A DNA stretch of 64,000 bases, from contig NZ_OY764015.1 of NCBI RefSeq assembly GCF_963667775.1, positions 2,965,001 to 3,029,000 of the forward strand, written 5' to 3'. The DNA comes from an uncultured Trichococcus sp. GTDB taxonomy: Bacteria > Bacillota > Bacilli > Lactobacillales > Aerococcaceae. Made by a program: the position numbers and the translations under genes. The first letter of the stretch is position 1, and each line of letters opens with the position of its first letter. Positions 3,391 to 63,930 of this stretch are shown here, in pieces. Under the pieces are notes generated by a model. It made no database searches. It was not told the origin of the DNA and saw only the letters and a list, made by a program, of their open reading frames with translations.

Positions 3391-3655
3391 GCCAGACCTC
3401 CACGGATTTTTTTCGGTTCTCAAAACGCACCTCGTAGCAGCCATCGTTGTAAATGGCATGTTCCGACAACAATGCCCGGACCGCGTTCAGCTCGGCGAGA
3501 TGCGTCTGCAGCACAAGGCCGCAACCTGCCGAAATCTGTTCCGGCATGGGGATCAGCCGGCATTCCCGACCGGTATCCCGGACAACGGCTTCTGCGGCTG
3601 CCGCGGCCTGGGAAGTCGGAAACGCGACGATGCCGTAATGTTTGCGGTCGATCAT
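3383..3655 (-). CDS. DUF3343 family protein, putative Se/S carrier
   Basis: A 90-residue cytoplasmic protein of the DUF3343 (putative Se/S carrier-like) family, recognisable from the start YGIVAFPTSQAAA and the central RLIPMPEQISAGCGL with a conserved Cys in the AGCGL turn. The family consistently occurs beside selenium-trait genes and is proposed to carry selenium or sulfur; no activity is established. Its ATG overlaps the yedF stop (ATGA) and its end overlaps the start of the desulfurase gene, so the genes are tightly coupled. Confidence 0.85.
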   Translation of the reverse strand: MIDRKHYGIVAFPTSQAAAAAEAVVRDTGRECRLIPMPEQISAGCGLVLQTHLAELNAVRALLSEHAIYNDGCYEVRFENRKKSVEVWHE

Positions 3656-4275
3656 GGCGATACGGTCTTGGAGGTGCGCAGGATTTCAACGATGCGGTAC
3701 ATGTTTGTGTAAGTGCCGACCGCCAATGTGTCCTTCACGCCATAGAATTCCCCGCAGATGCCGCAAGTCAGGACCTCGACGCCGTCTTCCTCCAACGCTT
3801 TGAGGTCTTCTAAAACGGCTGATCCTTCCGTCGTCAGCAGCGCGCCGGCATTGTAGCAGAGCACTTTTTCGGGCAGGACTTCCTGCTCCGTCAGGGAGAA
3901 GAGGAAGCTTTTCATCAGCGTACGGCCCAATTTCTCGCTGCCGTTGCCGATGCAGTCGCTGTTCAATGCGACGACATAGCTTGTCCCGGATGACGTCAAT
4001 GTTTCATTGGCTTGCTCCGGAAGCACAGTGTGTTCGGCGGCGTGCGGTCCGTTGTCGGATTTAGGATCCGAAAGCTGCACTTCATAAAGGGAATCGTTGA
4101 TTTTTTCGACTTGGACTGACAGTTTCAGCTGCTCCGCCATCTTGGCAAGATTCTGCGTCGCGATCTCATTGTCCACGCTGATAAGCACCGTTTCTCCGTT
4201 GCTCTCTTTCAAAGCCCGTTTGGTCAGAATGACTGGCATCGGACAAGCTTGTCCGACTGCATCTATTTTTTTCAT
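3652..4275 (-). CDS. yedF: Selenium metabolism protein YedF
   Basis: Two domains are visible. Residues 1-70 are TusA/SirA-like, with the motif GQACPMPVI whose Cys11 is the usual sulfur/selenium carrier. The C-terminal half resembles the DsrE/peroxiredoxin-like fold, with a conserved CGICGEFYGV segment. This is the domain order of YedF, found in most selenium-utilising genomes and thought to help deliver selenium to SelD. ATG 4275 follows a CAGGAGG site. It lies 227 nt after selD, separated by a structured repeat (4317-4500), so expression from the selD promoter would have to read through that element. Confidence 0.88.
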   Translation of the reverse strand: MKKIDAVGQACPMPVILTKRALKESNGETVLISVDNEIATQNLAKMAEQLKLSVQVEKINDSLYEVQLSDPKSDNGPHAAEHTVLPEQANETLTSSGTSYVVALNSDCIGNGSEKLGRTLMKSFLFSLTEQEVLPEKVLCYNAGALLTTEGSAVLEDLKALEEDGVEVLTCGICGEFYGVKDTLAVGTYTNMYRIVEILRTSKTVSP

Positions 4276-4316
4276 GCTCTTTTCCTCCTGGTTAAGTCAT
4301 AGTATTTTGAATGCAG

Positions 4317-4500
4317 AAGTGCATCACTGCAATTGCTTTACAGGTTGGTAAAATATTCCATGCATTCCAAAGTGTTGGCTAGCTTCACGGGTTAGCCCTT
4401 CGGAAATTAGATAAATCGGTCCTATTGCGCTCTTCGATGCTCAGTCGGACCGGTTTCCTAAATTTCTTTCAGGGCTGAACGAACCCGTTCCGCTTTTCTT
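4317..4500 (-). repeat. Structured intergenic repeat, about 180 nt, copy 1
   Basis: This is nearly identical to 63672-63853 read on the + strand. Positions 4381-4500 differ from copy 2 at only four bases by my count, and the rest is more diverged. On the minus strand it begins AAGAAAAGC two nt after the selD stop codon. It folds into a long hairpin: ACGGGTT with AACCCGT, AGCCC with GGGCT, an A/T-rich stem, then AAACCGGTCC with GGACCGATTT around a 24-nt loop. The distal section (4317-4365) is bounded by GTGCAT and ATGCAT. No coding capacity or T run is visible. Confidence 0.85.
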
Positions 4501-4502
4501 GT

Positions 4503-5534
4503 TCAATGGATCACCGTGATTTTCTTGGCGTCCTTCTCGGTCACTTCGCCGATGATGCCGCAGGGCAAGCCCAGTGCTTCGATTTCGGCAAGCAGCGCGG
4601 CCGCTTCTTCGACAGGAACGCTCACCAGCAGGCCGCCGGATGTCTGCGGATCAAAAAGGATTTCCTCCAAGGCATAGTCATCGATCTGGAAGTCGACATC
4701 GGTTTCCAAGTGATTGCGGTTGCGCTGTCCGCCGGCTGTGATCAGGAATTCCTGGGCTCCTTGATAGGCTCCGTGCAGGAAAGGCACGCTATCGGCGTAG
4801 ACGGTCGCTGAACAGCGGTCGCTGACCATCTCCGACAGATGCCCCAACAGGCCGAAACCGGTGATGTCCGTGCAGCTGTGGACGGTGTACTTTTTCAGGA
4901 TCTCCGCCGCATAACGGTTCAGCGTCGTCATCGAGACGACCGCCTGATCGAAGGATTCCTGCGCCATTTCCCCCGCGCTGTAAGCGGTAGTGATGATGCC
5001 GGTCCCCAATGGCTTCGTCAGCAGCAGGACATCGCCCGGGATACAGGTATCATTCCGGTAGATCCGATCCGGATGGACTCTTCCCAATACCGAAAGCCCG
5101 TATTTGGGCTGGGGGTCGTGGATCGAATGCCCTCCGACCAGCACGCCGCCTGCCTCCTGGACTTTCTTGAAGCCGCCCGCCAAAATTTTCCCGAGTGTAT
5201 CGGTGCTTTTTGTTTCGGGCCAGCAGACGATGTTCATGGCCGTCAACACTTCTCCGCCCATCGCAAACACATCGCTCAAGGCGTTGGCAGCGGCGATTTC
5301 CCCGAAAAGCGAGGCATCGGCAACCATCGCAGGGAAAAAGTCCAACGTCTGGATCATGGCCGTCTCGGCATCTATCCGGAATACCGCTGCATCATCCGAC
5401 GAATCGAAACCGACCAAAAAATTCGGATTCTCCTGTTTCGGAAACTGGCTGAGCAGATCACCCAGCACGCCGGGTCCGATTTTCGCATTACACCCCCCGC
5501 AGATAAATAGTTCATTTGATAATTCTTGTTCCAT
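4503..5534 (-). CDS. selD: Selenide, water dikinase (selenophosphate synthetase)
   Basis: SelD makes selenophosphate from selenide and ATP. The N-terminal signature ICGGCNAKIG places a Cys (residue 15) and Lys18 at the catalytic pair, so this is a cysteine rather than a selenocysteine form. LVGFDSSDDAAV gives the Mg-ATP aspartates, and DITGFGLLGHL and FDPQTSGGLL are the AIR-synthase-type C-terminal motifs. About 343 residues, normal length. A GTG at 5543 would add three residues, but the AGGAG site abuts it; that site is 8 nt from ATG 5534, so I chose the ATG. A TATAAT-like box lies at 5574-5579 on this strand. It heads the yedF-DUF3343-desulfurase row. Confidence 0.95.
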   Translation of the reverse strand: MEQELSNELFICGGCNAKIGPGVLGDLLSQFPKQENPNFLVGFDSSDDAAVFRIDAETAMIQTLDFFPAMVADASLFGEIAAANALSDVFAMGGEVLTAMNIVCWPETKSTDTLGKILAGGFKKVQEAGGVLVGGHSIHDPQPKYGLSVLGRVHPDRIYRNDTCIPGDVLLLTKPLGTGIITTAYSAGEMAQESFDQAVVSMTTLNRYAAEILKKYTVHSCTDITGFGLLGHLSEMVSDRCSATVYADSVPFLHGAYQGAQEFLITAGGQRNRNHLETDVDFQIDDYALEEILFDPQTSGGLLVSVPVEEAAALLAEIEALGLPCGIIGEVTEKDAKKITVIH

Positions 5535-5654
5535 ATTGTTCACTCCTGTAAGTCATGACGTGTTCACCTTTCAATTATATACCACGAATCAAAACATAAG
5601 GCGGATAATCTGCATATTTTATAAGTAAGGGATTCGATTTGGGGAGGTCCATGA

Positions 5655-56091: not shown

Positions 56092-56394
56092 AATATTAAG
56101 AAATCGTTAGAAAAATCATTTCCATCTAATGAAACCGATAATCAAGAGGAGTACGCATCATACCTTGTTTCCAGAGAGTCGCCGCCAGTGAGAGTGCGAT
56201 AGCGAAGGGGATGCCGAATGGACTTGAGAGGGTTGCCTTGAAAAGAGTAGGGGCAAACGGGGAACCTGATCCGTTAACAGACAGGCACATATGTTGGTAT
56301 GTGAACGAGTGGGCGATTATTATCGTCAATTTGGGTGGTATCGCAGGAGAATACAAGCTCTTGTCCCTTTAAAGGGGGACAAGGGCTTTTTTTG
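56092..56394 (+). promoter_or_regulatory. T-box leader with tryptophan specifier
   Basis: T-box riboswitch controlling the trp genes. Landmarks: AGAGAGTC, GCCAGTGAGAGTG, the specifier GCCGAATGGACTTGAG with TGG at 56219-56221, the core GGGTGGTATCGCAGG (56333-56347) and the terminator CTTGTCCC/GGGGACAAG followed by Ts (56359-56394). Low charged tRNA-Trp should open the antiterminator. Confidence 0.93.
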
Positions 56395-62674: not shown

Positions 62675-63670
62675 ATGCAATTGCTGTTGGAGCAAATGAA
62701 CGGATATGTGCTGGCGGCAGTACTTGTCCTCTGCATTTGGGTGCTGTCCAAGGCGACGGATATTTTGGTCGATGAAGCCATTTCGCTGTCTTTGGAGTGG
62801 GGGATGTCAGAACTGGTGATAGGCGCCACGATTGTTTCTTTGGGAACTTCGCTGCCGGAATTGGCGGTATCGATTTCCTCGTCCATGAAGGGCAACGGAA
62901 TTCTGGCTTTGGGGAATGTCGTTGGATCGACATTCGTGAATACCAGCTTCATTTTGGGGGTCGGCGCACTTTACGGAAGCATACCTGTCAACCGGAAAAC
63001 TGCTCATAAACACAGTGTTTTGTCGGTGCTTTCGCTCTTGTTGATACTCTCATCGTTGCCGATTTTTCATGCGGATGGACAAGGCAAGATACCGCAGTGG
63101 CTAGGTCTTGTCTTCCTAGTGTTGACTCCCGTTTACTTCTATTGGACGGTGAGGGAGGGGAAGCTGTACGGTGATGAGGCTATCATAGAAGAAGACAAGG
63201 AAAAAGGCATGCCGATTCTGATCAAATTGACAAAGTTGCTCGTCAGCGCGGTTTTTGTTATTGCGAGTGCTTCTGTACTGGTAAGTACGGTGGAAATCGG
63301 TGCTGCCCGAATCGGTATCCCAGATTCGGTCATCGCATCCACGGTCGTAGCCTTCGGGACCGGATTGCCGGAAATAAGCACAACCATCGTTTCCGTGAAA
63401 AAAGGCTACGGTGCTCTGGCGATGGGGAATATCATGGGTTCCAACCTACTGAACACTTTGCTCGTTCTTGGCGTGGCATTAGGATTTTCTCCTGGAGGAA
63501 TGGTCGTCAGTCCGGATTTCTACCAGATCCATTTCCCGGCTTTGGCTATTTTGCTGGCAGTTTTGGGATACTTTTCCTACAACAACAAAAGGGATGCCAT
63601 CAGCAGAAAAGAAGGGCGGATCTTGATAGTGTTCTATCTCGTGTATCTGATAGGAAACTATTTTCTGTAG
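62675..63670 (+). CDS. CaCA family Na+/Ca2+ exchanger-like protein
   Basis: A 331-residue antiporter with ten or so membrane helices in two halves. Each half carries an alpha repeat: GATIVSLGTSLPELAVS with GNVVGSTFVN, and ASTVVAFGTGLPEISTT with GNIMGSNLLN, whose Glu and Asn/Ser residues form the cation sites. An acidic/basic cytoplasmic loop (AIIEEDKEKG) separates the halves. This is the YrbG/NCX_Mj type. GGGAGTGGAGG precedes the ATG. The structured repeat begins 1 nt after its stop. Confidence 0.92.
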   Translation: MQLLLEQMNGYVLAAVLVLCIWVLSKATDILVDEAISLSLEWGMSELVIGATIVSLGTSLPELAVSISSSMKGNGILALGNVVGSTFVNTSFILGVGALYGSIPVNRKTAHKHSVLSVLSLLLILSSLPIFHADGQGKIPQWLGLVFLVLTPVYFYWTVREGKLYGDEAIIEEDKEKGMPILIKLTKLLVSAVFVIASASVLVSTVEIGAARIGIPDSVIASTVVAFGTGLPEISTTIVSVKKGYGALAMGNIMGSNLLNTLLVLGVALGFSPGGMVVSPDFYQIHFPALAILLAVLGYFSYNNKRDAISRKEGRILIVFYLVYLIGNYFL

Positions 63671-63671
63671 T

Positions 63672-63853
63672 AAGAAAAGCTGAACGGGTTCGTTCAGCCC
63701 TGAAAGAAATTTAGGAAATCTGTCCGACTGAGCATCGAAGAGCGCAATAGGACAGATTTATCTAATTTCCGAAGGGCTAACCCGTGAAGCTGGACATCAT
63801 TTTAGGTGCATGAAACATTTTGCAAACTTGTGAAACACCTACGGTGATGCACT
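63672..63853 (+). repeat. Structured intergenic repeat, about 180 nt, copy 2
   Basis: Same element as 4317-4500, here on the + strand and beginning AAGAAAAGC 1 nt after the antiporter stop. In this copy the upper stem is AAATCTGTCC with GGACAGATTT, fully paired; copy 1 has C-G and wobble pairs at the differing positions. The start also allows a local TGAAC/GTTCA hairpin. The distal part is bounded by ATGCA-type inverted ends (GTGCAT at 63808-63813, ATGCAC at 63847-63852). Confidence 0.85.
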
Positions 63854-63890
63854 TTTCACTCTGGAAAATTTTATAAATTCCTATATGTCA

Positions 63891-63930
63891 AAAAAAGGTT
63901 CGCGATCCCCTCGGGGTCACGAACCTTTTT
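63891..63930. terminator. Bidirectional terminator at the right edge
   Basis: AAAAAAGGTTCGCGATCCCC pairs with GGGGTCACGAACCTTTTT, T runs on both strands. It lies between convergent genes. Confidence 0.9.

Follow-up and report, generated by a model that had tools for sequence, protein, structure and literature searches.

The structured repeat behind the selD-like gene is one copy of a family of small palindromic elements, which, with a probability of about 0.85, are non-autonomous mobile elements that are mobilised by way of their hairpin, insert near transcription terminators and exchange modules afterwards. The repeat was followed through the window (the whole 64,000-nucleotide stretch of Trichococcus DNA), through the chromosome that carries it and through related genomes. 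The copy number, the fold and its covariation, three sites that are empty in sister species, the statistics of the target and the different module states at one site were observed directly and are presented below.

In the window, the core hairpin of the selD copy occupies positions 4375–4500 of the minus strand (126 nt, module-free; match to the core model R1 at G000:C1:2969375-2969500, 151.8 bits). It is continued by a diverged 3′ tail (4310–4374, minus strand) whose right junction was placed near the A-tract CAAAATA by means of the empty sites, and the whole copy runs from 4500 down to about 4310. It starts 2 nt past the stop TGA (4505–4503) of the selD-like gene (4503–5543, minus strand) and lies in the gap between this gene and the next ORF downstream, which is co-directional and 207 aa long (3652–4275, minus strand). 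The core hairpin of the CaCA copy was found at 63672–63797 of the plus strand (126 nt, module-free; R1 match G000:C1:3028672-3028797, 159.2 bits), 1 nt past the stop TAG (63668–63670) of the CaCA antiporter gene (62675–63670, plus strand). Its intact 3′ tail (63798–63888, plus strand) ends in ..TTATAAATTCCTATATGT, and the copy extends from 63672 to about 63888. The target flank outside this copy (63889–63930, plus strand) consists of a C, an A-tract, a terminator-like hairpin and a T run.

A preliminary description had reported two look-alike elements at these positions, on these strands, each starting just after a stop codon and in the sense of the gene. Our analysis agrees with it on these points, Pfam agrees with its gene labels (AIRS/AIRS_C for selD and Na_Ca_ex for CaCA), and the four differences that it counted within the first 120 nt were recovered at element positions 10, 48, 50 and 83. 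The compensatory change is real, pair 50-83 reading G-C at selD and T-A at CaCA. The supposed change from a wobble to a full pair has to be corrected, as position 48 forms a C48.A85 mismatch in the selD copy versus a T48-A85 pair in the other. The element was also said not to be a plain terminator, and both cores are indeed followed by GGACAT or AGCCAA and by no T run. The absence of a T run holds inside the element, but the CaCA copy is directly adjoined by an A-tract, then by a hairpin of the terminator type and its T run (63890–63930). Both window copies are predicted to fold into the core hairpin and the tail hairpins, that is, two adjacent stem-loops. Compared with 200 shuffles each, the 63660–63900 region gave a z of −5.4 (0/200 as good) and the selD copy a z of −3.2 (2/200 as good).

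A BLAST search with the CaCA copy gave 71 pieces in the own 3.3-Mb chromosome; together with one further place that came from the search across genomes, they were merged to 42 copies. R1, which was built from 12 own-genome copies, exceeded 50 bits at 27 sense-strand places of the same genome, and its weaker matches were not added to the 42. The repeat is present in 13/13 Trichococcus genomes, the own genome included; outside the genus, 1/28 other genomes matched, by module fragments only. The names within this genus set are inferred and comprise T. pasteurii (G011), T. flocculiformis (G010), T. patagoniensis (G001), T. paludicola (G006), T. collinsii (G003), T. palustris (G009) and Trichococcus sp. 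K1Tr (G002). The case considered in the preliminary description, in which only two copies would exist and no pairs would covary, is contradicted by the 42 copies and by the covarying pairs described below.

The 126-nt core folds into a single long, imperfect hairpin with 34 pairs in three helices. Its internal loops (GAAAG/CCGA and TAGGAAA/TTTATC) and its tip (GAGCATCGNAGAGCGCAAT) are near-invariant, and its ends, AAGAAAAGC.. and ..CTATATGT, do not form an inverted repeat. Module-free cores measure 125–127 nt, or about 217 nt together with an intact 3′ tail. Core sizes are modular and range from 62 to 445 nt, with optional modules at fixed points of the core: A between about 32 and 37, B at 54/56 and C at 77/95. 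Among 39 own copies classified by motif, 23 have no module, 7 have B, 3 have B+C, 2 have C and 4 have A+B+C, under a rule that overlooks the short A of L044b as well as forms that are truncated or partial (for instance L029 and L036). By eye, the three modules have parts that resemble one another. The long A+B+C core of L045 folds better than its shuffles, with a z of −6.6 as DNA and −5.7 as RNA. At the other extreme, a minimal copy of about 62 nt (L025, G000:C1:1941972-1942034) has arms that are near-perfect complements, which looks as though its 3′ arm had served as the template that overwrote the rest. Rfam searches with the core and the long forms returned no relevant family, the matches being to miRNA models, at palindromic terminators, and to unrelated RNAs, and a known RNA family was ruled out on these grounds. 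Elsewhere in the window, the Rfam search identified a T-box leader (56129–56371, plus strand).

Covariation was evaluated in two alignments. The first one, A2, contains 43 distinct gapless Trichococcus copies aligned with MAFFT, structure not being used. In A2, 12/34 pairs change on both sides and 96.9% of the cells pair. None of 500 shuffles reaches any of the observed values, in a test where related sequences can outdo shuffles without any structure, and slid structures give 1–4 such pairs. Of the 12 two-sided pairs, eight depend on L032, a single divergent copy, and another depends on three copies. The signal is mostly found at the P4 tip, where pairs 50-83, 51-82 and 52-81 are supported by 15–19 copies each; the poor pairs are 10-117, unpaired in 19/43 copies, and 19-108, unpaired in 14/43. 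The second alignment, A3, has 82 distinct Bacilli rows; two-sided changes are seen in every one of the 34 pairs, and pairing is kept in 94.8% of the cells. These figures are to be read with the facts that A3 was fitted to R1, and hence leans towards the model, and that it includes array neighbours and one antisense row among its 85. The cells of A2 comprise 1396 Watson-Crick, 21 G-U (19 of them in one pair) and 45 mismatched ones, and those of A3 2545, 83 and 141 respectively. That G-U is rarer than mismatch may be taken as a weak hint that pairing at the DNA level fits at least as well as pairing at the RNA level.

Three sites were compared between sister species. The selD site is filled in 2/12 genomes with a match (the own genome and G001, T. 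patagoniensis) and empty in the other ten, where a gap of roughly 25–45 nt is found instead of the element; the genome G007, which is about half complete, gave no match at this site. At C1:1319768, the element is present in 1/13 genomes (the own genome only), and the closest empty sisters read CTGTTTTTTT^CGAAAAAAG straight through. In the filled site this same sequence is split at the mark, nothing is duplicated and the target is fully kept. The junction is unambiguous at this site only, the other two examined sites having drifted. The third site, C1:1321061, is filled in 5/13 genomes at the same point and in three module compositions: core only in G001, G005 and G011, core with B in G010, and short A with B in the own genome. 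Since these differing states share one site, modules have been gained or lost in a resident copy. The empty sites in sister species at all three examined positions indicate that the element is mobile.

In order to describe the target, 39/42 own copies and 60 related ones were placed in their gene context; 4 related copies were dropped as duplicate flanks and the remaining 95 were merged to 76 sites, a low count because a cluster of 12 was joined by shared tail sequence and not by orthology. One site had no left gene, which leaves 75. The related copies were the top-listed model matches, so module-free copies are favoured. Genes came from our own ORF caller (at least 60 aa), whose calls seem wrong for at least L015, L041 and L073, lowering the stop count, and the background was the 64-kb window only. 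A sense stop was found within −12 to +15 nt of the element start at 39/75 sites versus 5.6% of the intergenic positions of the window, the other 36/75 sites not being at a sense stop. According to the ORF calls, 24 copies lie in sense and 19 in antisense in co-directional gaps, 26 lie in convergent and 6 in divergent gaps. The element had been described as fixed to stop codons: the link to stops is real, but the word overstates it in view of the 39/75 sites and of the 24 sense and 19 antisense copies.

The right flank of the 24 tail-intact copies, not all of which are independent, defines the target more closely. A T immediately precedes the element in 17 of them and a Y immediately follows it in 21; positions 2–8 of the flank are mostly A, and position 5 is A in 24/24. 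An A-rich right flank was scored in 17/24 versus 27/1000 intergenic stretches. A hairpin of dG ≤ −18 kcal/mol occurs within the next 60 nt in 17/24 versus 83/1000 window intergenic stretches, 7/24 missing this cut-off, and a strict terminator rule is satisfied in 10/24 versus 16/600. The laxer cut-off of −10 discriminates poorly (22/24 versus 351/800). Among the 22 copies with a −10 fold, the first paired G or C lies at 6–12 nt in 17 and at exactly 8 nt in 9. One of the 24 right flanks is itself another copy of the element (L004). The selD site is exceptional, consisting of an A-tract between two co-directional genes where no terminator was seen. Terminators are found a few nt past stop codons, so that insertions next to them often have a stop immediately before their start. 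In L247, an element copy (1501–1622) that directly precedes a terminator-like hairpin was also found inside an Rfam match to the sRNA family BsrG (L247:1367-1742), which spans 117 nt more than the model.

These observations can be arranged into the following mechanism. The long imperfect 126-nt hairpin of the core would be what a spreading activity acts on, presumably as the substrate of a mobilising enzyme. The element would insert at (R)T^YAAAAAA without target duplication, with some 8 nt most commonly separating it from the base of a terminator-like hairpin that follows. Once in place, a copy would acquire or shed modules A, B and C at their fixed positions, through recombination with other copies or through nested insertion. 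Copies inside transcripts would affect mRNA 3′ ends only incidentally. Among the three identities proposed in the preliminary description, a MITE/RUP-like element is the best supported, by the number of copies, the empty sites, the preference for gene ends and the kept hairpin, but it is not a classical MITE since its ends are not inverted repeats and no duplication is seen at the one clean empty site. A search for a mobilising protein or an autonomous copy found none.

The other two proposals, a functional 3′UTR RNA or a transcript-stability element, would have the hairpin kept after stop codons as RNA, where it would protect mRNA 3′ ends or tune expression of the upstream gene. The very stable RNA fold, the covarying pairs of A2 and A3 and the 39/75 sites directly behind a sense stop fit such a role. 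Yet about half of the sites (36/75) are not behind a sense stop, orientation in co-directional gaps is mixed (24 sense, 19 antisense), the three examined sites are not conserved between sister species and, in both alignments, G-U cells are fewer than mismatched ones, which is a weak test. A dedicated 3′UTR element, weakened by the orientation counts and the empty sites, is hence not the leading explanation and appears quite improbable to us; transcript stability would be influenced only as a side effect, wherever transcription happens to run through a copy. A different question is whether the compensatory changes reflect structural selection at all, since they could also come from hairpin-templated correction (quasi-palindrome conversion) together with recombination between copies. 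The sides of the P4 tip do change together, with GC in 28 copies, UA in 13, AU in 2 and nothing else at pair 50-83, and the inner part of L025 is replaced by a near-perfect complement of its 3′ arm. Such correction would, however, erase the internal loops and the tip, which hardly vary in Trichococcus and can still be recognised in further genera, and all 34 pairs vary across Bacilli while remaining paired. We consider this origin of the covariation doubtful, though worth keeping in mind.

As for the mobilising activity, the element could be moved in trans by a Y1 transposase of the IS200/IS605 type. Its reverse strand ends in a hairpin and TTTTCTT, like the stem and T run of the target, a resemblance that would account for head-to-tail arrays, and arrays with a spacing of about 120–127 nt do occur in other genera. 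The lack of inverted-repeat ends and of a duplication at the clean empty site points the same way, as does a 752-bp IS200-like element of the own genome that directly adjoins one element copy. Three of four readable left flanks, a small number, consist of a hairpin and a T-rich run, one of these three being the adjoining element copy itself. The own genome contains four Y1_Tnp (PF01797) matches. This domain is nevertheless absent from 9/22 other element-bearing genomes, among them four Enterococcus genomes with at least 7 or 8 element matches listed each; in the 13/22 that have it, several matches are fragments or contain stops, and it is present in 3/8 genomes without the element. No tail-only BLAST piece, as expected of an IS that shares the right end, was found in the own genome. 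A transposase of this type is thus weakened as the sole mobiliser and remains an unlikely one, and a host or reverse-transcriptase route is possible. A further proposal, which we consider improbable, couples insertion to transcription termination in a hairpin class that would be Bacilli-wide, with no transposase of a known type and with modules exchanged afterwards. Entry would then occur 6–12 nt, most often 8 nt, from the base of the terminator stem, at a point whose opposite strand is where the terminated RNA would be released, and insertion would perhaps exploit the 3′ end of that RNA or the bubble still open there. The IS200-like element itself (L178) exists in two identical copies (G000:C1:1611718-1612469 and 1856895-1857646), one of which abuts the 5′ end of the palindromic element exactly, after a hairpin and TTTTCTT.

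The family extends beyond Trichococcus. With R1, matches at E ≤ 0.001 were found in 101/395 Lactobacillales genomes (22/80 genera), and at E ≤ 1e-6 in 35/398 Bacilli genomes (19/146 genera; 27/35 outside Lactobacillales), at most 8 candidates per genome being scored in both tallies; as a score of 30–45 bits may be reached by any long palindrome (38.6 bits for the antisense strand of true copies), these tallies include doubtful genomes, Streptococcus above all. By eye, the stronger matches in Lactobacillales share the frame AAGAAAAGC..TAGGAAA..TTTATC..AGCTAGACA, with variants, and those of other Bacilli the frame AAGAAAAGCGGAA..GACAAGC..CTCGAG..AGCTGGACAA, with a best score of 63.7 bits. The head-to-tail arrays were seen in several genomes of other genera. 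Among 65 non-Trichococcus loci, oriented by a rough rule and with arrays included, 11 begin at a sense stop, a weaker link than in Trichococcus; the 3′ tail motif is present in 5/65 only, and a conserved tail outside Trichococcus was rejected. Plasmid or phage cargo was rejected as well, blastn searches of plasmids and phages with different family members having found nothing. Among the matches listed, the family pattern occurs in several Enterococcus species, e.g. E. moraviensis, E. ureilyticus and E. termitis, and no E. faecalis record is among the 120 stretches listed in the pattern scan.

In the literature searched, the family was not found described in Trichococcus, which is no proof of absence. 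REP/BIME sequences are extragenic hairpins that form arrays, are non-autonomous and are associated with RAYT, a Y1 transposase. The present element is likewise extragenic, hairpin-shaped, found in arrays and non-autonomous, and differs in the missing Y1_Tnp of 9/22 element-bearing genomes. Stand-alone HEARO/omega RNAs are mobile structured elements with variable stems; no Rfam family matched the Trichococcus core or long forms, which sets them apart. The Enterococcus faecalis repeats (EFAR) of Venditti et al. 2007 are said to be modular, to measure 42–650 bp and to be aimed at stem-loops, most of the target stem-loop reportedly being deleted upon insertion, whereas a strong right hairpin is kept here in 17/24 tail-intact copies. 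Compared by description and not by sequence, EFAR and Efa-1 resemble the Trichococcus element in being intergenic repeats of the same order, in their two adjacent stem-loops and, reportedly for EFAR, in being modular. The Trichococcus element is somewhat longer, about 217 nt with its tail (core 125–127 nt) against about 163–170 bp for EFAR (as reported) and Efa-1. Since the family occurs in several other Enterococcus species, EFAR is probably a branch of it, as far as descriptions can be compared.

Efa-1 of E. faecalis is 163 nt long, has 65 copies and forms a pair of adjacent stem-loops (PMC2267715). BOX of S. pneumoniae is described as modular, structured and interspersed, 67–637 bp long and over-represented between convergent genes (PMC3049150). 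BOX differs in its terminal inverted repeats and target duplications (PMC3049150), neither of which was seen in the Trichococcus element, duplication having been judged at the one clean empty site. SPRITE of S. pneumoniae lies near gene 3′ ends and has an 18-bp duplex, a U-rich tract and AAAA/TTTT ends (PMC3049150). The Trichococcus core shares the location near gene 3′ ends and has 34 pairs and no T run. On their described anatomy, identity with BOX or SPRITE was set aside. One common hairpin frame, covered by no Rfam family, is suggested for scattered repeats of low-GC Gram-positives. The empty sister sites and the three module states at one orthologous site make movement and change of such a repeat directly testable, and a mobilising activity that chooses its target near terminators is a testable question as well.

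Some related sequences deserve mention. In Streptococcus and Lactococcus (L263–L336), the inner motif TAGGAAA..TTTATCT is common, the outer stems and ends differ (about AAGATAC..TTCAATTA) and some elements adjoin another copy; these elements are possibly a sister family. One genome from another family of the order (G025; L072–L088) carries long mosaic intergenic repeats with units such as GGATGCGGAGCGAGG, which share a piece of module A. In the pattern scan, matches in a record titled Lokiarchaeota (L273), without the element frame by eye, and in one titled Pelagibacteraceae (L370) are likely due to chance. The pattern scan of IMG/VR gave matches in three stretches (L380–L382) on two viral contigs.
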